Below, in pieces: positions 7,754 to 27,254 of a stretch of 34,876 nucleotides of DNA. The notes under the pieces were generated by a model. That model was not told the DNA's origin, searched no databases, and saw nothing but the letters and a program-made list of their open reading frames with translations. The DNA is from Bacteroidota bacterium. GTDB lineage: Bacteria; Verrucomicrobiota; Verrucomicrobiia; Methylacidiphilales; UBA1321. The DNA lies in contig CAJCII010000136.1 in the NCBI GenBank assembly GCA_903970335.1, positions 1 through 34,876 of the forward strand. The letters are read 5' to 3'. Every line of letters starts with the position of its first letter. The first letter of the stretch is position 1. Both the position numbers and the translations under genes were made by a program.

Positions 7754-8437
7754 ATGATTAAATTCCGCTCAGTCGCTTTGGGCCGCGTTGCCAGCCAGCG
7801 CGGATTCACCTTGGTGGAACTTCTTGTGGTTCTAGCCATTATATCCATCCTGCTCTCCGTGCTGATTCCAGCCACGTGGAGTGCCCTCAAATCGGCGCGA
7901 CAGTCGGCGGCGACACAAAGTTCGCACGGAATTGGTGAGTTGATGACTCAGTATGCTTTGGACAATGGGCAATATCCCGATGGCGCGACCTCGACCGACG
8001 CGTTCAAGTTGCTTTTGTCCAAGGGCTACCTCACGTCAGCCGATGTTTTTTATCTGCCGAACGGTCAGCAAACAAAATTCAAGGGAGTGTCGCCGGCAAC
8101 CAACCTGACTTCGGCCAATGTGTCGTGGGACATCATGGGGTTGAATGGCCAGGGGACGAGTTCCGGGCCGGTCGGTTTGTCGGTCAACGCGCCATCGGAA
8201 TTACCCTTGGTTTTCAGCACCGGCGGTACGGTGAATGTGCCGCAACAGGCTGGGACCGGATCGGCGACTTGTAGCGCGAAGGGACCGCTGGGAACGGACG
8301 GGCTGGCGGTGACTTACCGGGACAATCACTCGACATTTGCCAAAGTCGATTCGACGGACGGCACGTCTACGATCAGCGACTTCATTGCGGGGTCATTCGA
8401 TCCCCAAGGCTTGACCTACGTGCAAAGAACGCCGTAG
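7754..8437 (+). CDS. Type II secretion/type IV pilus pseudopilin-like protein
   Basis: A 227-residue protein with a class III (prepilin) signal, QRG|FTLVELLVVLAIISILL. Cleavage is predicted between Gly17 and Phe18, and the conserved Glu is at +5 (Glu22). The hydrophobic helix continues to about residue 40 and is followed by an extended alpha-helix (ATWSALKSARQSA). The C-terminal part has LMTQYALDNGQYPDG, reminiscent of GspG-type major pseudopilins, and an insertion of about 100 residues rich in Gly, Ser and Thr. It would be processed by a PilD-type peptidase and assembled in a pseudopilus. No assembly ATPase or platform gene is near; the secretin cluster begins 8 kb away on the same strand. 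Confidence 0.82.
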   Translation: MIKFRSVALGRVASQRGFTLVELLVVLAIISILLSVLIPATWSALKSARQSAATQSSHGIGELMTQYALDNGQYPDGATSTDAFKLLLSKGYLTSADVFYLPNGQQTKFKGVSPATNLTSANVSWDIMGLNGQGTSSGPVGLSVNAPSELPLVFSTGGTVNVPQQAGTGSATCSAKGPLGTDGLAVTYRDNHSTFAKVDSTDGTSTISDFIAGSFDPQGLTYVQRTP

Positions 8438-16695: not shown

Positions 16696-17355
16696 ATGTC
16701 ATTCCGTGCAACGACACTTAGGCGGCTCATTATTGTCGCATTACTTCTCGTTAAGCTTTCTGGTAACTCCACTGCTCAGGATAACGGCCCGGTCTTTTCC
16801 TTTGCCAAGGTCGATCCCGTGACATCGACTTTGGTCAAGGCGGTCAACAACGACCAGAACGGCTCCACGTCTTCCCCCACCGATGACCAGTGGCTCATGG
16901 TGGAATTTAAATACAGCGTCAATTTGCCGAAAGACCGCTACCTCGATCAAATTCAGTTCAAGGTATGGGTCGAGGGGCGGGATATGCTCGATCCGCAAGG
17001 GCAGTCCGGACAAGGCATTGCGGTGGCGCTGACCGGATCGGTCACCTACGCCAACGTCGGCAAGGGAGATGAGATGTATGGGGTCGTCTATCTGCATCCC
17101 TCCACGCTCGCGCGTTATAGCACGCCCTCCGGCGGGGTGAATGATTTTGATCGTAAGTTCGATGTCCATGTGGAAGCGGATATTACCGGAATGTCGCCGG
17201 TCGGTGTGGACAAGAACAAGGAAGAGGACCCGAATTGGTACCAAGCGCTCCGTACGATCCCCGGTCTCGTCTACCGGCAGAACCAATGCCCATTTATCAA
17301 CGATAATCCGGACCGCTATCCCGCGATCAAGCTGCCCGATTCCTCCTCGAATTAG
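16696..17355 (+). CDS. Amuc_1102-family pilus-like protein
   Basis: A 219-residue exported protein. A signal peptide is clear (LRRLIIVALLLVKLSG, ending near STAQ27). The mature part is soluble, with alternating beta-strand character and no cysteine-rich or repeat motif: DDQWLMVEFKYSVNLPKDRY, then IQFKVWVEGRDML, then a C-terminal PDRYPAIKLPDSSSN. The identification rests on position as first gene of a five-gene order identical to Amuc_1102-1098 and on the fit of size and topology. It probably acts in the periplasm as an accessory of the secretin complex. I recall an immunoglobulin-like fold for Amuc_1102, unverified here. The start at 16696 gives a normal signal peptide; an upstream ATG at 16636 would add 20 charged residues before it. 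Confidence 0.65.
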   Translation: MSFRATTLRRLIIVALLLVKLSGNSTAQDNGPVFSFAKVDPVTSTLVKAVNNDQNGSTSSPTDDQWLMVEFKYSVNLPKDRYLDQIQFKVWVEGRDMLDPQGQSGQGIAVALTGSVTYANVGKGDEMYGVVYLHPSTLARYSTPSGGVNDFDRKFDVHVEADITGMSPVGVDKNKEEDPNWYQALRTIPGLVYRQNQCPFINDNPDRYPAIKLPDSSSN

Positions 17356-17421
17356 CGGATCGCTCCCCGTAAAAATAATCCCTTGGTCCATCTCCTTCTT
17401 TTTTAAACCTAAATTTTCACC

Positions 17422-19212
17422 ATGGCAGCCGCAACCAAAGTCATCACGGTCGATCTCGGGACAAGTACGATCAAGTTTGCGGAGTTCGGTCTCGGTCGTG
17501 GGGGCGCGCTTACGCTCCTGCGGATGGGCGTAGCCGAACTTGGTCTCGACCCGAACAAGGAGGAGGAACGGGCCAAGTTCATCACCCCCACTCTTGCCAA
17601 GCTCTTCAAGGACAACGGAGTCAAAGGCAACGAGGTTCTTCTCTCCATCTCCGGACAAAGCGTTTTCATGCGCTTCGTCAAACTTCCACCGGTCGATGCC
17701 GCGCAAGTCGGCCAGGTCGTCGCTTTCGAAGCGCAGCAAAATGTCCCTTTTCCCATCGATGAAGTCACCTGGGACTACCAGATGATGCCCAATCGCTCGT
17801 CCGGCAGCGAAGCGGAGGCGGTGATTGTCGCCATCAAGAAGGAAGTCCTCGAAGCCGAAGTTGAAGCCGTCGAGCGGGTCGGAGTCAAAATCAAGCAAGT
17901 CGATATTGCCCCGTTCGCCCTCCTGAATTCCTTCCGCTACAATGAACCGCAAACCGACGATTGCTCGCTCATCATCGACATGGGCGCACGTTCGACCAAT
18001 CTTGTCTTTGTCGAGAAATCGACGTTCTGGATTCGCAACATTCCCATCGCCGGAAATCAGATTTCCCAGAGTATCTGCAATGAAATGCAGGAGCCGTTCA
18101 CTGCGGCCGAGACCTTGAAAAAGGGTAAGGGATTCGTTTCGCTCGGCGGAGTCTACGCCGACCCGGACGACGCCGATGCCGCGCGCATTTCCAAGCTGAT
18201 TCGCGCCACCATGACCCGCTTGCATGTCGATATCAACCGCTCGGTTGCGTATTACCGAACAACGCTCAATGGCGGTGCCCCCAAGCGTGTTTATCTCACG
18301 GGGGGGAGTTCGCAGTTGCCGTATCTCGACCTCTTTATCGCCGACAAGCTTTCCCTTCCGGTAACCTACTTCAATCCGCTGCGTAACGTCAGTCTGGCCA
18401 AAAACATCAATACCACCCTGCTCCAGCAAAATCATTGCTACACCGCAGAACTGGTCGGCTTGGCCCTGCGTGAAACCGGAAGCTGTCCGGCAGAAGTTTC
18501 GCTGGAGGCTCCCAGCCTGGCGGCGCGGGCGGACAAGCGACGCAAGCAACCCTACTTCTATGGAGCGCTGGTGGCCTGGGTGCTTCTCTTCGTTTGCGTC
18601 GGACTTTATTACTACCAGCAGACGGTCATGGCCACCCAACTTGCCCAGAAACTTCGGGACAAGACTTTAGAGGTCAAGCCCCTCTCTCCCGTCATTGGCA
18701 AGCTCTCCGCCCAACTCGGTTCTCTCCAGAGCACGCTTAGCTATGCCACCCGATTGGGGGACCAGCGCGATGCCTGGCCCCAGATTCTGGCTGCTCTTAA
18801 CGACCATATCCCGCCGGGAGTCTGGATCACCGATTTTACTCTCTCCACGGCAGATGACAGCGGTAATTCGGATCCGGGGGGAGCTGGCGGACCCGGTGGT
18901 CCTGGCGGACCTGGCGGACCTGGCGGACCCGGAGGCGGGTTCGGACGAGGCGGAGGGGGTGGTGCACCCTCCAACCAGATCACCGGGATCAACATCAATG
19001 GACTATATCATACCAACCCCTTGACCATGCAGGTCGATTCCAGCCAACTCTTGGTCTTTGTCAATGGCCTGGCCGAAACGCCTTACTTCGACATCGACAA
19101 GAACAACCTCTCTTCCACTTTGCCTTCCTCGACCACGGCCGATCGCGCCTCCTTTGCCCAAAAATTCACGATGCACCTGAAGCTCAAGAACCCCATTAGC
19201 CTCAGCCCCTGA
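17422..19212 (+). CDS. Amuc_1101-family PilM-PilN fusion protein
   Basis: A 596-residue inner-membrane-associated pilus assembly protein joining two units. Residues 1-360 form a PilM/FtsA-like actin-fold ATPase: phosphate-1 motif DLGTSTIKFA at Asp11, phosphate-2 DMGARSTNL at Asp186, adenosine motif LTGGSSQLP at 291-299. A transmembrane helix follows at about 379-397 (GALVAWVLLFVCVGLYYYQQ), then a PilN-like coiled-coil and ferredoxin-like periplasmic part (QILAALNDHIPPGVWITDFT). This part contains a Gly/Pro tract of five GGP triplets (489-503) and more glycine. In proteobacteria PilM and PilN are separate chains; fusion enforces 1:1 coupling across the membrane. It follows the first gene by 66 bp and precedes the Amuc_1100-like gene by 9 bp. 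Confidence 0.83.
   Translation: MAAATKVITVDLGTSTIKFAEFGLGRGGALTLLRMGVAELGLDPNKEEERAKFITPTLAKLFKDNGVKGNEVLLSISGQSVFMRFVKLPPVDAAQVGQVVAFEAQQNVPFPIDEVTWDYQMMPNRSSGSEAEAVIVAIKKEVLEAEVEAVERVGVKIKQVDIAPFALLNSFRYNEPQTDDCSLIIDMGARSTNLVFVEKSTFWIRNIPIAGNQISQSICNEMQEPFTAAETLKKGKGFVSLGGVYADPDDADAARISKLIRATMTRLHVDINRSVAYYRTTLNGGAPKRVYLTGGSSQLPYLDLFIADKLSLPVTYFNPLRNVSLAKNINTTLLQQNHCYTAELVGLALRETGSCPAEVSLEAPSLAARADKRRKQPYFYGALVAWVLLFVCVGLYYYQQTVMATQLAQKLRDKTLEVKPLSPVIGKLSAQLGSLQSTLSYATRLGDQRDAWPQILAALNDHIPPGVWITDFTLSTADDSGNSDPGGAGGPGGPGGPGGPGGPGGGFGRGGGGGAPSNQITGININGLYHTNPLTMQVDSSQLLVFVNGLAETPYFDIDKNNLSSTLPSSTTADRASFAQKFTMHLKLKNPISLSP
18886..18930 (+). repeat. Five in-frame 9-bp repeats encoding GGP
   Basis: Consecutive 9-mers of the form GGCGGACCT, with small variations, begin at 18886, 18895, 18904, 18913 and 18922. 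They are in frame with the PilM-PilN gene and encode a collagen-like (GGP)5 stretch. Such repeats change copy number by slippage without breaking the frame, so the linker length may vary between strains. Confidence 0.85.
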
Positions 19213-19221
19213 CCGACTGCG

Positions 19222-20265
19222 ATGAAAAAAATTTCCACATTCGATATCGGAATGATCGTCGCCTTCGTCGTGATCGGTGGTGCGGGCTTCGGCGCCTACT
19301 GGTATCTCTCGAGTCAGCTTACTCAGGCCGTGCAGGATGTCACCGATGCCAAAAGCGAGTTTGACCGGGACTCCGTCAATCAGAACATCGTCGTCAGTCC
19401 GGCCAGCCAAAAAAATCTTCAAGACAATATCGACCTGATCAAGGCCCAACTTGACCCCCTCGTCCAAAACAAACTTCAACCGAAGGAAAACACGCTCTCT
19501 TCGATCACACAAAAGGATCCCTTGGCTTGGAAGCGGGATTTGGATGACGAAGTGACTCGTTTGACGGCTGCGGCAAAACTTCACGGAGTGAAAATTCCCC
19601 AGAATTTTTATTTCGCTTTTTCCCGCTACCTCAACCAGAACCCGACCAACGAACAAACCATCGTTTTGAGCAAGCAACTCCTCGGAGTCGATAAAATCTC
19701 CAACATTCTCATTAACGCACCAGTCAAGAGCATTCAGGCCATCCGCCGTACCTATGAAGAAGATGGCAGGTTTACCGGCGGTGGAGGCGACGGCGGCGGA
19801 GGCGGGTTTGGCCAGCCCCCGGGTGGTGGTGTGGAGGGGGATCGACTTCCCGGTTCTTCCGTCGAGGCGGGACGTGGAATTTACACCGCCTACCCGTTCG
19901 AAGTCGATTTCGACACGTCGCCGGAAACTCTTCGCAAAGTGGTGGATGACATCGTCCAGTCTCCCTATATTTTCGTTTTGCGCACGATCAGCGTGCAAAA
20001 TTCGTTCGGAAAGTCCCCCTTGATCAGCGACCTCGACCGTCTGGCGGGTGCACCGCCTCCCTCCATGGTCGATACTTCGCCGGGTGAGGTTGCGGCAACG
20101 AATTCCAACCAGCCTCCGCAGTACCTTTTCGGCAACGCCACTCTTCACGTTCGCATCCTGGTCGATCTGGTCGATTGGAACGGAGTTCCGACCGATACGG
20201 CTCCGCCACCAGGGACGAACAACCGCGGTCCGCGAGGCAGAAATCAACTGCCCGGTGCTAATTGA
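19222..20265 (+). CDS. Amuc_1100-family, PilO-like protein
   Basis: A 347-residue inner-membrane protein with one N-terminal transmembrane helix (about 9-29, DIGMIVAFVVIGGAGFGAYW). A periplasmic coiled coil follows (SSQLTQAVQDVTDAKSEFDR), then two ferredoxin-like regions. The C-terminal segment YPFEVDFDTSPETLRKVVDD, then SPYIFVLRTISVQNSFG, has the pattern I remember for Amuc_1100, the outer-membrane-enriched Akkermansia protein. Between the two regions there is a Gly-rich insert (about 186-205, GGGGDGGGGGFGQPPGGG). The C-terminus is Pro/Asn/Arg-rich and probably disordered. It likely pairs with the PilN part of the preceding fusion and bridges to the secretin. Position as third gene in the cluster supports the call. 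Confidence 0.8.
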   Translation: MKKISTFDIGMIVAFVVIGGAGFGAYWYLSSQLTQAVQDVTDAKSEFDRDSVNQNIVVSPASQKNLQDNIDLIKAQLDPLVQNKLQPKENTLSSITQKDPLAWKRDLDDEVTRLTAAAKLHGVKIPQNFYFAFSRYLNQNPTNEQTIVLSKQLLGVDKISNILINAPVKSIQAIRRTYEEDGRFTGGGGDGGGGGFGQPPGGGVEGDRLPGSSVEAGRGIYTAYPFEVDFDTSPETLRKVVDDIVQSPYIFVLRTISVQNSFGKSPLISDLDRLAGAPPPSMVDTSPGEVAATNSNQPPQYLFGNATLHVRILVDLVDWNGVPTDTAPPPGTNNRGPRGRNQLPGAN

Positions 20266-20269
20266 TGCT

Positions 20270-21385
20270 ATGAGCTTTAAATCACCCGAACCCATTGTTT
20301 TGGCCGTTGCGCTCCTCCTGTTGGCAGGGACGGTGGCTGGGCTCGCCCTTTACTTTCCCTCCCTCCCGGACCTTACCGGAGTGACCAGCCTGGAACCTAA
20401 AGGGCGCGTTGCCCCCAAGCTAAAACCGGAAGATGTCGCCGCCAACACGGCTACTTGGAACGCCCCGGTCTTGTGGACTGCACCGGATAAACCGGATTCG
20501 CAATCGTACCGTCTCTTCGATTCGAAACAATTTCTTTTCTACCCCTCGCTTTACCCCAACGGCGCTACCCCGTACATCGTACCGAATGATGGCACGGCCC
20601 GCTCTCCCGGCGGCGTGCTTCTCAGTTGGTACCAGAAGTACGGGATCGATTTCACCAGCCCCACCGTGGATCGCGAAGACCCCTCCGGGGATGGGTTCTC
20701 CAACATTGTCAAATACAAGAACGAACCCGTCGGGGCAAAGTACAAGGCCAGCGATCTGGACGGTTCCAAATCCTGCAACCCCCTCGATCCGCAAAGTCAT
20801 CCCGCTTATCTTTCCCGTCTCCGCCTGCAAAAATACGAGGCCCGTCCCTTCCGCATCCAATTCAAAGGGTACGAACAAGTCGATGGCGTTTATGAATTTC
20901 AAATTTATCTCCAGGATGTTCCCAGTGACCGTCAGCCTCCGTTGAAAAAAACCGGGGACCCGCTCGGTTTCGAGGATTACACCGTCGGAGATTTTCATCT
21001 CAACATCGTCAACGAGATCGATCCCAATACCCACGTGGCGGAGGATGTCGATAAATCCACGGTCACGCTCGTCAAGCCCGCGATTGGCTTTAGCGTCACC
21101 CTTCCCTATCGACAGTTGCTCGATTCGCCCGAATCGACCGCCGATTTTGTCATGCTCATGCCCACAGAGGTGGACAAAGTGCTCAAAGTCCCGAGAGGCA
21201 AAATCTTAACCGTTCCCTACATCACCGCTTCCGACGCGCAATACCTCGTCATCGAGGCCAACGACGATGGCGCGAAGATTCAAGATACGAAAACCAAGCA
21301 AGTGTACCACATCCCCAAGTTGGATTCCGGCGAATGGGACGAAGTTCCCGTTCCGGCCCAAACCGCTGCCCCAAAAAGCCCATAA
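20270..21385 (+). CDS. Amuc_1099-family pilus-like system protein
   Basis: A 371-residue protein with an N-terminal hydrophobic helix (about 9-28, IVLAVALLLLAGTVAGLALY). A long soluble region follows with no catalytic motif that I recognise. Notable segments are TVDREDPSGDGFSNIVKYKN, which resembles a thrombospondin-type-3-like or dockerin-like calcium loop (DPSGDGFSN), and FRIQFKGYEQVDGVYEFQIY. The C-terminus (AKIQDTKTKQVYHIPKLDSG) is beta-rich. It could play the role of PilP, linking the inner-membrane complex to the secretin; this is inference from its place between the PilO-like gene and the secretin. Start chosen at ATG 20270, 4 nt after the previous stop; the frame is open upstream but antisense-like there. 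Confidence 0.7.
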   Translation: MSFKSPEPIVLAVALLLLAGTVAGLALYFPSLPDLTGVTSLEPKGRVAPKLKPEDVAANTATWNAPVLWTAPDKPDSQSYRLFDSKQFLFYPSLYPNGATPYIVPNDGTARSPGGVLLSWYQKYGIDFTSPTVDREDPSGDGFSNIVKYKNEPVGAKYKASDLDGSKSCNPLDPQSHPAYLSRLRLQKYEARPFRIQFKGYEQVDGVYEFQIYLQDVPSDRQPPLKKTGDPLGFEDYTVGDFHLNIVNEIDPNTHVAEDVDKSTVTLVKPAIGFSVTLPYRQLLDSPESTADFVMLMPTEVDKVLKVPRGKILTVPYITASDAQYLVIEANDDGAKIQDTKTKQVYHIPKLDSGEWDEVPVPAQTAAPKSP

Positions 21386-21399
21386 CCCACTTTCGGTAC

Positions 21400-21428
21400 T
21401 TGACTCTCACTTCATTTTTACATAAAAA
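21400..21428 (+). promoter_or_regulatory. Internal promoter before the first secretin
   Basis: TTGACT (21400-21405), 17 nt, TAAAAA (21423-21428). The secretin ATG follows after 22 nt, with an AGAGG run (21438-21442) 8 nt before it that can serve as ribosome-binding site. This is the best-placed conventional promoter in the window and would let the two secretins be expressed separately from the upstream assembly genes. Confidence 0.5.
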
Positions 21429-21450
21429 CCTTTAATCAGAGGCTTATCGA

Positions 21451-24099
21451 ATGAAATATAACTACGCCTGTATCCTGCTAGCGGCCTCGCTTTTACCATT
21501 GTCTCCATTCAGGCTTATCGCAAACGATGCGACCACCTCCGGTTCCGATCAACCCGCGATGAGCCCGGCCCAGGCCGCGCAAAGGGAAGCGGTTAGTCGC
21601 CAGCAAAGTATTTTCAGCGCCAGTCAAGCGGTCGAAGACGGTAAACGGTTCCTCGACAGCGGCAAATTCGACGATGCGGCAGATCGTTATCAGTATGCCG
21701 TCGATGCTCTCACGGCCGGCGGTGTCTCCGCCCCTCTCTATCATCGCGCAGCCGTAGGCCTTGCCGCTTCCAAAGCTGGGCAGGCGGGTGAAGCGGCCAA
21801 GGACACTAAATTTGCCCAAGCTGCCGCCCTCTTGCAACAAGCCATCGTTCTCGACCCTCAGAACCCGGCCTATCCCAAGGCCATCGAAGACCTGAAACAA
21901 GAACAGGAAGCTTATCAGCAGCAGGTGGACGATCCGGAGGGTACGGTCAACAATCCCGCCGTCACCGACGATTTCAAACAGCGGATTGCCACGATTCAAA
22001 AACTTCTCCTCCAAGGAGATGCCTATTTTGCGACCGGCCAATACGAAAAATCGGAAGAAACCTATTCGAAGATACTTATCCTCGATCCTTACAATAAGGC
22101 GGCGCGGGAAAAAATGAGCCACATCGAGCGCTACCGGATGCAGGCTGCCGGTTATCGCCACGAGGAATACGAGCAGGAAAAAATGGTCGAGATCAACCAG
22201 CAATGGTCGGAATCGATTTCGCCCGACATTGTTGTGCCTCCAAGTGCGACAGGGACCAGCAGCGTTTCATCGGAGCGCGCCAAAATTACCCGCAAACTCC
22301 AGTCGATCATCATCGACAAGGTCAATTTCGATAAGTTGGACATCGAAGAGGTCGTTCAATTCCTCATCGACAAAAGCAAGGAACTCGATCTCCCCAACCA
22401 TGAGGGTATAAATTTCGTCTTGCGACTCTCCTCAAACGCCACGGCTCCCGAAAATACGACAACTCCGGGAACCACGCCTGCGCCCAATGTGCCCAGCAAT
22501 GTTCCTGGCACCCCCAGTGCGGGAGGTGAAGCGGCGTCGGAGACTCAGGCCATCCACCGTGAAGTCAGCATCACGCTCGACAGCGTCCCGCTTTCCGAGT
22601 TGCTCACCTACATCACGCAACAGACCAATCTCCAGTTCTCGGTCGAGGATTATGCAGTCTATCTCCGTCCTCAAATCGACGAAGGTGAAACGCTCTCCGT
22701 CCGGTCCTTCCCTGTTCCGCCGAATTTCTGGAACGGAGCGCAGCTTAAAGTTAGCGTTGCGTCTCCCACCGACACCTCGGCCGTTAATGTTGAGGCGGTC
22801 AGTATTAATGTGACCAACGAACTAATCGCCAAGGGCATCACCTTTCCCGAAGGTGCCACGGCCACCTTCCTCAAGGGTTCCAGCAAACTCGTCGTCCGCG
22901 ATACCCCCGATCAATTGGATCGAATCGCCGCGCTGATCGACAGCTTCAGCAAGCCCACTCCCCAGGTCAAAATCGAGGCTAAAATCGCCGAGTTCAATCA
23001 AAATGCCATCAAGGCACTTACGTTCAATTACTACGCTGGCATCGACGCCATCAACAATGCTCTCGGACCCTATACCAGCATTGGTGGCCAGACGGCGTTG
23101 CGCACGGCCGAATACACCTCCCCCGCCGGACTCGGTGGCCTGAGCTCCAATAGCATCGATACTTTGGTTCAGCAGAACCAAAGCAATAACTCTGGCAGTT
23201 CTGTCAGCCTGCCCATCTCCGGCGACACGGTCGCTCCCAACTCCCCCAATGTGCTCGAGGTGGGAGCGGTTCTCGATAAGATTGGTTTTGCTGCCATTGT
23301 CAACGCCCTCAACAATACCAAGGGAGCTTCCCTCGTTTCCGCGCCCAGCGTCACCACTCAAAATGGGCGTAAGGCTAATATTGATGTCGTGCGTGAATTT
23401 CCTTATCCCACCGCCTTTGAGAAGCCCCGGATCAATAACAACGACGGCTTGGCCTACACCCAAACAGGAGGCGTTGATATTTTTGGTTTTACCGTTACTG
23501 AAACCACTCCGGTTCAATTGGCGCTTCCGCCGAGCCCGAGCGATTTTAAAACTCAAGACATCGGGGTCAGTCTCGAAGTTAAGCCGACGACCTATCCCGA
23601 CCGGCGCATCGATCTCGATATCACCAAGGCACAGGTCGTCGATTTCGATGGATTCATCGACTACGGACAACCCATTGTCGTTCGCTACGCTCAAGCCACG
23701 CCTCCGCAAAACGAGCCGGGAACGGTTCTTACCCCAGGCACCATCAACCAGCCAGTTTTCAACCTCCGCTCCGTTGTCACCAACCTTCAGGTGCTGGATG
23801 GGCAGACCGCCGTGCTTGGTGGGCTAATGACCGAGGATACTCAGGAAATTAACGACAAAATACCGGTTCTCGGCGACCTGCCTTTGGTCGGAAGGCTCTT
23901 CCAAAGCAAAGTTTCCGAAAGAACCAAAAAGAATCTGTTAATCTTCATCACTGCCGAACTGATTCGGTCCAATGGCAAGCCCCAATACGTCAAGACGCTC
24001 AATGCCGAGCCAGTGGAAGAAAAGCTGCCCGATCCCGATCAGGAAATTGGGCCCGGCGTGGTTCTCCCACCTCTGCCGCAAGGGGCGCCGAATTCATGA
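21451..24099 (+). CDS. Amuc_1098-family secretin (first of a tandem pair)
   Basis: An 882-residue outer-membrane pore protein. It has a signal peptide (ACILLAASLLPLSPFRLIA, to about residue 25). A TPR-like helical region follows (about 55-235; SAQAVEDGKRFLDSGKFDDA in spirit, with YFATGQYEKSEETYSKILIL clear). Then comes an N0/STN-like domain (about 290-405) interrupted by a Thr/Pro/Asn-rich stretch (about 327-364), an N1-like domain, and a C-terminal secretin domain (about 600-835) with VVTNLQVLDGQTAVLGGLMT and IPVLGDLPLVGRLFQSKVSE, both typical. N-terminal TPR units on a secretin are unusual in proteobacterial PilQ but fit the Akkermansia-type family. It overlaps an ATGA start of the next frame by 3 nt. 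Confidence 0.86.
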   Translation: MKYNYACILLAASLLPLSPFRLIANDATTSGSDQPAMSPAQAAQREAVSRQQSIFSASQAVEDGKRFLDSGKFDDAADRYQYAVDALTAGGVSAPLYHRAAVGLAASKAGQAGEAAKDTKFAQAAALLQQAIVLDPQNPAYPKAIEDLKQEQEAYQQQVDDPEGTVNNPAVTDDFKQRIATIQKLLLQGDAYFATGQYEKSEETYSKILILDPYNKAAREKMSHIERYRMQAAGYRHEEYEQEKMVEINQQWSESISPDIVVPPSATGTSSVSSERAKITRKLQSIIIDKVNFDKLDIEEVVQFLIDKSKELDLPNHEGINFVLRLSSNATAPENTTTPGTTPAPNVPSNVPGTPSAGGEAASETQAIHREVSITLDSVPLSELLTYITQQTNLQFSVEDYAVYLRPQIDEGETLSVRSFPVPPNFWNGAQLKVSVASPTDTSAVNVEAVSINVTNELIAKGITFPEGATATFLKGSSKLVVRDTPDQLDRIAALIDSFSKPTPQVKIEAKIAEFNQNAIKALTFNYYAGIDAINNALGPYTSIGGQTALRTAEYTSPAGLGGLSSNSIDTLVQQNQSNNSGSSVSLPISGDTVAPNSPNVLEVGAVLDKIGFAAIVNALNNTKGASLVSAPSVTTQNGRKANIDVVREFPYPTAFEKPRINNNDGLAYTQTGGVDIFGFTVTETTPVQLALPPSPSDFKTQDIGVSLEVKPTTYPDRRIDLDITKAQVVDFDGFIDYGQPIVVRYAQATPPQNEPGTVLTPGTINQPVFNLRSVVTNLQVLDGQTAVLGGLMTEDTQEINDKIPVLGDLPLVGRLFQSKVSERTKKNLLIFITAELIRSNGKPQYVKTLNAEPVEEKLPDPDQEIGPGVVLPPLPQGAPNS

Positions 24100-24131
24100 T
24101 TGTCCTTAATGCTTTCATACTCCTCTCACCC

Positions 24132-26732
24132 ATGAAACGTCCTTTCCACTATTTGATCCTGTGCCTGGCTGTGAACGCTCCCGGCCTGCTCCTTGCACAG
24201 GATCCTGCCATGTCGGGCCAATCCTCCGCCTCGTCCGCCGACGCCACTCAGCCAAGTCTTGCTCAACAGTTCACTCCTCCTGCCGACGGGGCTGGTGCAA
24301 CCACCCCTGCCGCCAGTCCTGCACCAACGACTGGAACCGGTGGGAATCCCAAGCCGAGCGTGACCGCCAAAACGCTTCCCGCGCCAACCTCTCCGCAGGA
24401 ACTGGCCCGGATTCAACAACAGGAAATTATCCGGCGCCAGGAACTCATCTTTCGGGCCAACGATGCTCTCGCCAAAGCCAAACAGCAGGAAAACGGCGAA
24501 AATTACCCCGACGCTAGAAAGAGTTACCTCTTTGCTGCCGAAGCCTTTGGCTCCATCTCTCGTTCGACTAACACCTACGCCGATTCTGCCGAAGGCCTCA
24601 CCCGGGTCGATTTCAAACTCTACGACGATGCGCTTAAATTTGGCGATACGGCCCGGGCCAAACTTCTGATCGAAGAAGTCGTCAAATACAATCCCAACAA
24701 CAAAGAGGCCAACGACAAACTGATTGCCTTGGACCGGATGCTGGCCGATCCCAACGATACGTCGCTCTTGGGCAATCCGGCGGTTACGCCGACCCTCGTC
24801 AAGAACGTCAATGAAATTCAGGAGCTTTTCAACGAAGCCGAACAGTTTCGCCGCACAGGTCAATGGGACCAAGCGGAGGAAAGGCTGAGGCGAATCATCG
24901 GGATCGATCCTTACAATATCGCTGCGACCAAACAGCTCGAGCGCATCGAATCCGAAAAGAATGACTATGCCGAAAAAGCTCGGCTGGAAATGCGGGACGA
25001 ACGTCTCCGTGAGGTCGACGAAAAATGGTACCAGCCGATCATCAACAAGGAAGACGCCACCACGGCCCAGGAAAGCCAGGCCCCCATCTCTCTCGATACG
25101 ACGTTTAATGTTAATCAAAAACTAAAGAGCACGTTTGTCTCCCTTCACTTCGAGTCCGGAACGACGATCGAGCAGGCCACGAGCTTCCTCACCATCGAAA
25201 GCAGAAAAATCGATCCGGAGCATAAAGGAATCAATTTCATCATCCAGCCGGAGGCCTCTACCTCGGCCAAGACCATCTCCCTTTCGCTGAATAACGTGCC
25301 GATGGACGAGGCTCTGCGGTATATCTGCCAGCTTGCCGGGGTCAAATACAAGATTCAGGACTACGCCATCTCCATCGTTCCCTTCAGCCAGAACACCGAC
25401 GACCTGATCAGGCGCACCTTCAATGTCCAACCGAACTTTGTCGCACCTCCCTCCGGCGTCTCCACGGCGAGCACCGCCACTGCGGTCTTCGGTGACGAGG
25501 GTGGCGGTGGTGGCGGCGGACGCCCCTTACCTCCAGCGGTTGTATCTTCAGGTGGCGGCGACTCTACAACCGAAACCGATCCGATTCGCGCAGCTCTTGA
25601 ATCCAAAGGTGTGAAATTTCCCCCGGGAGCCTCGGCCAGCTACGACCCCAACTCGGGACAACTTATTGTTATTAATACTGCCGACCAGATGGAACTGATC
25701 GAAGAATTGGTTAATGCAGGTCAGGCTCCCACGGAGATGGTTCGCATTTCCACGAAATTTGTTGAAGTCAATCAAAACGATCTTAACGACCTGACCTTCA
25801 ATTCGGCTTTTAATTTCTTGAATCCGCTCGCTCAGGCTCCGGTCAGCGGACCGATTTCCAACAATCCCCTCAGCTTCTCGCACTTCAACACCGCCTTGCC
25901 CGGTGCTCTCGGCTTTACCCCCGATAACATCGATGCGCTGATTAGCCCTGCCAACGCCAACGAGAACAGCTTCTACCTCCGCTCCTTCCTCTCCGGTGCC
26001 CAATACAATGTGGTGGTTAATGCTCTAGCCCAGAAAAAAAGCGCCGATGTCCTCTCCGAGCCTTTTACCATGACGAAAAATGGTGAAAAGGGAGTCTTGG
26101 AAGCCGTTCGTGTCTTCCCTTACCCCAGTGCCTTCGACCCACCGCAATTGCAAACATTGTCGAACAATAATATCAACGCCACGAATCTTGTTCGGGTCAC
26201 CGTTCCCCCAGCTGTTATCGCCAGCACTCCGACCGACTTTAAAAAGCGCAATATCGGAGTCTACCTCGCCATCACTCCCCAGATTACTGGGGACAACACC
26301 GTCGATCTCGAGCTTGCGCCAGAGGTCACAGCCTTTGACGGTTTCATCAATTACGGAAGCCCGATCTTTGTCGCAAATCCCGATGGCACGCAATCGCTCT
26401 TGAGCTCCAATATCATCGATCAACCGGTTTTCGACACGAGGCGCATCGACACCAAGGTATTGATCAAGGATGGTTCGACTGTCGTCTTGGGTGGTTTGAT
26501 TCGTGAAGACATTCAATCGGTCAACGACAAGGTTCCTCTCCTCGGCGATCTACCTCTTATCGGTCGCCTCTTTCAATCCAAGGCGATGTCGAGCACCAAG
26601 CGCAATCTGCTGATCTTTGTCACGGCCAATATTTACCGCAACGATGGCGAACTCCTCAACCCACCGGAGGAAGTCAATGCGGCCGACGTTCTTACCGGAC
26701 GCGCCAGTGGTGTACCCGCAGGAACTCCCTAA
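24132..26732 (+). CDS. Second Amuc_1098-like secretin, paralogue of the preceding gene
   Basis: An 866-residue secretin with the same architecture as its neighbour. It has a signal peptide (LILCLAVNAPGLLLAQ, ending near residue 20), a Pro/Thr/Ala-rich segment to about residue 80 and a TPR-like region (about 90-285, with AEQFRRTGQWDQAEERLRRI). An N0-like domain follows, then a Gly-rich insert (about 456-476), and a secretin domain ending VPLLGDLPLIGRLFQSKAMS and NLLIFVTANIY (about 795-830). ATG 24132 was chosen because it gives a proper signal peptide. An earlier ATG at 24096 overlaps the previous stop as ATGA and would add 12 residues, so coupling with that start remains possible. The two are clearly homologous but diverged, so the duplication is old. 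Confidence 0.85.
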   Translation: MKRPFHYLILCLAVNAPGLLLAQDPAMSGQSSASSADATQPSLAQQFTPPADGAGATTPAASPAPTTGTGGNPKPSVTAKTLPAPTSPQELARIQQQEIIRRQELIFRANDALAKAKQQENGENYPDARKSYLFAAEAFGSISRSTNTYADSAEGLTRVDFKLYDDALKFGDTARAKLLIEEVVKYNPNNKEANDKLIALDRMLADPNDTSLLGNPAVTPTLVKNVNEIQELFNEAEQFRRTGQWDQAEERLRRIIGIDPYNIAATKQLERIESEKNDYAEKARLEMRDERLREVDEKWYQPIINKEDATTAQESQAPISLDTTFNVNQKLKSTFVSLHFESGTTIEQATSFLTIESRKIDPEHKGINFIIQPEASTSAKTISLSLNNVPMDEALRYICQLAGVKYKIQDYAISIVPFSQNTDDLIRRTFNVQPNFVAPPSGVSTASTATAVFGDEGGGGGGGRPLPPAVVSSGGGDSTTETDPIRAALESKGVKFPPGASASYDPNSGQLIVINTADQMELIEELVNAGQAPTEMVRISTKFVEVNQNDLNDLTFNSAFNFLNPLAQAPVSGPISNNPLSFSHFNTALPGALGFTPDNIDALISPANANENSFYLRSFLSGAQYNVVVNALAQKKSADVLSEPFTMTKNGEKGVLEAVRVFPYPSAFDPPQLQTLSNNNINATNLVRVTVPPAVIASTPTDFKKRNIGVYLAITPQITGDNTVDLELAPEVTAFDGFINYGSPIFVANPDGTQSLLSSNIIDQPVFDTRRIDTKVLIKDGSTVVLGGLIREDIQSVNDKVPLLGDLPLIGRLFQSKAMSSTKRNLLIFVTANIYRNDGELLNPPEEVNAADVLTGRASGVPAGTP

Positions 26733-26852: not shown

Positions 26853-27254
26853 ATGCGGGATTCTTATCAGGTTATGGGTAATGTTTTCACCGCTGACCTC
26901 ACGGGCGATAACATTCAATTCCTGCTCCTCACCGCCATTGTCGCCGCCTCGGCCTCTCTGGCCGTTTTTGTGGCTTGCTTTTATTGGTTCCGTCGCGAAC
27001 AACGACGCATGCAGAAACGCATCCTCCACGCCATTGCCAACCCGGCCCATGAAACCGACGAACTTTTCCTGACCGGTCGCGATGCCACCGCTTATGGCGA
27101 ACTCGTTGCGCAATTCAAAGTCAACCACGGCAAGCAGGTTGTCTCGCTCTTGGAAGCCGACGGTAAGCGCTACATCCATGTCGATGGAGAACTTTCCTCT
27201 CTGGAGCGCGCCAAAATGGTTCGCTATCTCAAGTCCGAAGGTTTCATGTCGTGA
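26853..27254 (+). CDS. Small single-pass membrane protein, unknown function
   Basis: A 133-residue protein with one hydrophobic helix at about 24-45 (FLLLTAIVAASASLAVFVACFYWF). A basic cytoplasmic stretch (RREQRRMQKRIL) follows, which by the positive-inside rule puts the N-terminus outside. The C-terminal 70 residues (LFLTGRDATAYGELVAQFKV, then GKRYIHVDGELSSLERAKMV and RYLKSEGFMS) form a compact mixed domain that I do not recognise. The start is uncertain: ATG 26853 or ATG 26874 (MGNVFTADL), neither with a clear ribosome-binding site. It follows the second secretin by 120 bp on the same strand and may belong to the pilus-like cluster, but nothing shows that. Its 3' end is 9 bp from the convergent ABC ATPase gene. 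Confidence 0.65.
   Translation: MRDSYQVMGNVFTADLTGDNIQFLLLTAIVAASASLAVFVACFYWFRREQRRMQKRILHAIANPAHETDELFLTGRDATAYGELVAQFKVNHGKQVVSLLEADGKRYIHVDGELSSLERAKMVRYLKSEGFMS

Follow-up and report, generated by a model that had tools for sequence, protein, structure and literature searches.

We analyzed a 34,876-nucleotide contig (CAJCII010000136.1, positions 1 to 34,876 of the forward strand; hereafter, the window) from assembly GCA_903970335.1, which is titled Bacteroidota bacterium and placed by GTDB in the Verrucomicrobiota order Methylacidiphilales. Six open reading frames (ORFs) at 16696-26732 (+), all intact, form what is, as identified from family matches and gene order, a diverged Amuc_1102-1098 (MUL2) operon: all five families of the Akkermansia cluster occur in the order 1102-1101-1100-1099-1098, followed by a second 1098-family secretin. 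The tandem secretin pair is old, has been retained as a pair across this little-studied group of Verrucomicrobiota, and has had more than one origin; this suggests two kinds of pore subunit in a single surface machine. On balance, we think that both secretins probably serve a single type-IV-pilus-like (MUL2) machine. Secretins are usually regarded as single-protein rings, and we know of no secretin with an obligate hetero-oligomeric ring of two paralogues.

A first-pass annotation, made from the sequence alone, had described five genes in the Akkermansia order and then a second full-length secretin, and had proposed the Amuc_1098-1102 family match. Both descriptions held, with all six proteins matching the NCBIfam models in that order, though in diverged form. 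The two secretins, A and B, each matched the Amuc_1098 model over nearly the full length. Their layout of TPR region, N0 (STN) domain, and secretin domain, likewise proposed at first pass, was recovered with Pfam and with an AlphaFold model of secretin B, whose middling scores (mean predicted local distance difference test [pLDDT] 72, predicted template modeling score [pTM] 0.38) suffice for domain order only; a signal-peptide-like start was read by eye from the secretin sequences. The closest solved relative of the secretins, by sequence and by fold, was PilQ, the fold match for secretin B being PilQ 6w6m. Secretins A and B were only ~30% identical, and their ORFs overlapped by 4 bases (ATGA at 24096), a 4-base overlapping start codon found in 7/7 members of the window's genus; in the pairs read, the second start lay about -4 to +75 nt relative to the first stop. 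Translation of secretin B may actually begin at the in-frame ATG at 24132, where a better signal peptide starts. A fused double secretin, a candidate raised by ~1700-amino acid frames over both copies in several genomes, was dropped, as ORF calling at the loci read showed the copies to be separated by a stop codon.

The origin of the pair was examined in a tree of 63 secretins, with tree tests run as short ("quick") searches. Within each tandem group, the first and second copies formed separate clades (Shimodaira-Hasegawa-like approximate likelihood ratio test support of 99-100), and no sign of homogenization between copies was found. As placed in this tree, the tandem duplication predates the radiation of the window's order. 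Together with the NCBIfam matches, the trees mark secretin B as a within-family tandem paralogue rather than an import from another system, in agreement with the duplication claimed at first pass. That the window's group and group II (f21/f25/f31/f34; Terrimicrobiaceae and others) share a single ancestral duplication was rejected, since forcing it cost 167 log-likelihood units (approximately unbiased [AU] test, p=1.2e-4); the duplications were separate, and tandem doubling therefore arose at least two times. A duplication shared by the window's group and the f20/f23 group was not rejected (p=0.28), and the latter may share the window's duplication. In Akkermansia-type G061 (L080/L081), G131, and G165, one copy lies in the cluster and another elsewhere, and a FastTree tree places the dispersed copies close to the cluster copy of the same lineage, which suggests further doublings in these lineages; here, long branches make the placement less sure. 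Separately, we observed three dispersed full-length Amuc_1098-family secretins per genome in G165 (C34, C57, C30) and G102 (C4, C17, C14). Within the window's group, sites at 14 columns were fixed differently between the copies, the mean divergence of the two copies was equal, and the highest partial distance correlation was that between t1 and t2, at 0.57 (jackknife 0.52-0.60).

Among the loci read in relatives, which were drawn from two genome collections, the five-gene order was general across Verrucomicrobiota, Kiritimatiellota, and Lentisphaerota. In the window's order, two adjacent, closely spaced secretins in the same order were present wherever the secretin locus was intact: the pair was located by coordinates in 22 genomes of families f1, f2, f3, f4, f6, and f7 (for f4 and G019, from match coordinates only, with upstream genes left unread). 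Beyond these 22, the first copy was cut by the contig start in G012 (f5) and frame-broken in G026, and in G022, G024, and G027, the secretin matches lay at contig breaks. No loss of either copy was seen in this order, and no good match to the Amuc_1098 secretin family was found in family f8, G008, G016, or G021. As a separate observation, G016:C178 carries a row of large ORFs (~900-1100 amino acids) with several weak, partial secretin-family matches. A 2026 study did not detect the Amuc_1102-1098 (MUL2) locus in Methylacidiphilales (PMC13174399). In contrast, we found the cluster in records titled Candidatus Methylacidiphilales (L092, L095, L096) and Candidatus Methylacidiphilaceae (L099), so that a diverged MUL2 locus, as recognized by its gene families, is present in Methylacidiphilales-titled genomes. 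The cluster also occurs, with 66% identity (1101), in L097 (CAJCIA010000232.1), a record titled Betaproteobacteria bacterium that is probably a misnamed bin.

The remaining genes of the operon were assigned from family models and profile searches (Table 1). Among the six proteins, 1099 alone passed its NCBIfam equivalog cut-off, and 1102, 1101, 1100, and both secretins are therefore filed as diverged homologues rather than equivalogs; their matches below the cut-off still span most of the protein length. A profile of 1102 relatives found the solved Amuc_1102 structure 7dsz (E 1.2e-53), and one of 1100 relatives found solved Amuc_1100, 6lad (E 4.7e-67), as its sole strong PDB match; no PilO Pfam match was found for 1100. 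Against the Myxococcus pilus machine model, the 1101 profile matched PilM (3jc8_Ma, positions 7-362, E 2.6e-65) and then, in its second part, PilN (3jc8_Na, positions 366-500, E 3.4e-8), which identifies 1101 as a PilM-PilN fusion; PilM, PilN, and a PilQ-type secretin thus stand together in one operon. The 1099 homologue has an N-terminal membrane helix, a TSP3-like calcium motif (TSP3_bac matched in 16/43 relatives), and a beta-rich C-terminal part. Its predicted model was confident (mean pLDDT 88.8), a PDB fold search with that model gave no significant match, and the protein may have a new fold. The operon position of 1099 would fit PilP, an assignment we set aside after a PilP sequence match of E 0.28 in 1/43 relatives and the fold search without a match. 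Scanned for promoters and terminators, the operon gave no excess over shuffles. Directly after secretin B, at 26853-27254, lies a small ORF with one membrane helix, whose conservation (54-73% identity) is confined to the window's genus.

Table 1. Genes of the MUL2-type cluster in the window, with the family matches on which the names are based
Feature	Coordinates	Strand	Evidence
Amuc_1102 homologue (Ig-like pilus-like protein)	16696..17355	+	NF042424 Amuc_1102_rel 42.5 bits, cut-off 55
Amuc_1101 homologue: PilM-PilN fusion	17422..19212	+	NF045709 Amuc_1101_fam 485.5 bits, cut-off 650; TIGR01175 PilM above cut-off
Amuc_1100 homologue (PilO-like by operon position only)	19222..20265	+	NF038287 Amuc_1100_fam 86.1 bits, cut-off 180
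Amuc_1099 homologue	20270..21385	+	NF042425 Amuc_1099_fam 69.2 bits, cut-off 50 passed
Secretin A (first tandem copy, Amuc_1098/PilQ type, TPR + secretin)	21451..24099	+	NF042912 Amuc_1098_fam 536.6 bits, cut-off 750; Pfam Secretin, TPR; clade I_t1
Secretin B (second tandem copy)	24096..26732	+	NF042912 Amuc_1098_fam 546.1 bits, cut-off 750; Pfam Secretin; clade I_t2

The first-pass annotation had also pointed out that the window holds no PilB/GspE, PilT, or PilC/GspF gene. This is true but carries little weight, as the genome, a fragmented assembly that is 83.7% complete, has PilB, PilC, PilT, prepilin peptidase, and type IV pilin-like genes, with all T2SSE and T2SSF matches on contigs other than the window's. 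PilB1-PilB2-PilC lie on C117, behind nusA-infB (these names, like those of the type II secretion system [T2SS] and Tad clusters below, were read from gene order and sequence, backed by family matches). The PilB proteins scored 613 and 605, slightly below the curated 676, and both have Walker A, Walker B, and His-box motifs; PilT-family ATPases with scores above the curated cut-off are found on C201, C63, and C123, a prepilin peptidase on C217, and N_methyl matches number 13 genome-wide. Two tandem PilB-type ATPase genes followed by a single PilC were seen at G000:C117 (L172:9120-13780) and in L181-L200. PilB1 and PilB2 formed two clades, each with all 21 genomes tested, Akkermansia-type G061 included. 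Since each clade holds 21/21 genomes, the PilB duplication predates the class sample, and having two assembly ATPases for a single platform protein seems to be a trait of the whole class. A common event behind the PilB and secretin doublings was rejected, the PilB duplication being the older. In G049, pilB1-pilT-pilB2-pilC stand ~1 kb from the cluster secretin, and in G081, pilB1-pilB2-pilC are on the cluster's contig, a few kb away; this adjacency links the PilB/PilC ATPase set to the 1102-1098 scaffold. In G061 (Akkermansia), as in the present genome, the cluster and PilB genes are far apart. The pseudopilin gene noted upstream at first pass is indeed there, as a lone type IV pilin-like gene at 7754-8437, but in the relatives read it does not neighbor the cluster.

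Judging from its PilM-PilN component, its PilQ-type secretins, and the linked PilB/PilC genes, the cluster most likely encodes a MUL2-type machine that resembles a type IV pilus. In such a machine, the PilM-PilN fusion, 1100, 1099, and 1102 would form a type-IV-pilus-type envelope scaffold, whose outer-membrane secretin gene doubled in tandem before the window's order radiated. Both secretins would work in one machine powered by PilB1/PilB2 on PilC, moving a pilus or polymer through the outer membrane. We prefer one machine with both subunits because of the close coupling of the genes, their strict co-retention, the equal divergence, and the residual distance correlation. That A and B co-assemble into a mixed ring is the least sure part of this proposal, a possibility that we put forward tentatively. 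More doubtful still is the full version, in which the outer-membrane channel would be an obligate hetero-oligomer of two paralogues that evolved at least two times and is driven by the paired PilB1/PilB2 motor. Several observations weigh against the proposal. With 1099 having failed the PilP sequence and fold tests, the scaffold is probably not a plain PilMNOP. Many relatives keep a single secretin in the cluster. Convergent specialization shared by the two tandem groups was rejected, as zero sites had diverged alike in both, and the t1-t2 distance correlation is partly expected for any two paralogues.

Two homomeric pores, alternative or specialized, might instead share one inner-membrane scaffold and motor set, with, for example, one pore for extension/adhesion and the other for DNA or polysaccharide uptake. 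We hold this, tentatively, to be nearly as likely as the favored reading: both copies retain all domains and have diverged, with the differently fixed columns described above, and the extra copy that Akkermansia-like lineages keep away from the cluster is easier to reconcile with separate pores. Against it, the two genes are tightly arranged for co-transcription and have been retained together in the window's order, which leaves no room there for separate regulation. The first-pass suggestion of two pathways on one scaffold was weakened by the other secretins of the genome. A T2SS cluster without a secretin inside (C113) and several scattered pilin-like genes could be taken to mean that secretin B serves type II secretion or a second pilus; yet a GspD-type secretin lies on C191, a Tad-like cluster has its own secretin on C91, and secretin B is nearest to the cluster's own family, not GspD. 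As these other systems own secretins, we regard a second secretion pathway as improbable. We give equally little credence to gene dosage, in which the extra copy would do no more than boost the supply of an abundant outer-membrane protein. The recurrence of the doubling is in its favor, but the low identity of the copies and their two separate clades across many families do not fit it, and dosage alone would permit homogenization or loss, the latter not seen in the window's order. With regard to what the first-pass annotation had named as grounds for abandoning its view, the proteins do align with the Amuc_1098-1102 families, and secretin B does not belong by phylogeny to an unrelated system.

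The recurrent tandem pair, retained across the order, offers natural systems for testing mixed versus alternative rings. In addition, the MUL2 locus known from Akkermansia, which draws interest in connection with host interaction and glycan use, now reaches environmental genomes with Methylacidiphilales titles, and PilB1-PilB2-PilC emerges as an ancient unit of matching motor genes. MUL loci were reportedly first described by Davey et al. in 2023.

The closest known counterpart is Amuc_1098-1102 of Akkermansia muciniphila (MUL2; PilQ = Amuc_1098), which shares the five families in the same order, a secretin with N-terminal TPR, and PilB1-PilB2-PilC elsewhere in the genome (Akkermansia facts from PMC4960237, PMC5332112, and PMC13174399); a role of MUL2 in attachment or mucin use has been reported for Akkermansiaceae (PMC13174399). 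The window differs in having two operon secretins, whereas in Akkermansia a single secretin gene sits in the cluster and a second is far removed from it, and protein identities between the two are mostly 18-31%. With canonical type IVa pilMNOPQ plus PilB, PilC, and PilT, the window's system shares the PilM/PilN matches, a PilQ-type secretin, and PilB/PilC/PilT-family genes; in contrast to it, PilM and PilN are fused, 1102 is extra, TPR is fused to the secretin, secretins and PilB are each present twice, and no PilO/PilP sequence is recognizable. The Terrimicrobiaceae-type tandem secretins (L052-L061, L120, L160, L166) occupy the same operon position, with the same order of the two secretins, but stem from an independent duplication (AU p=1.2e-4) and lack a shared pattern of diverged sites.
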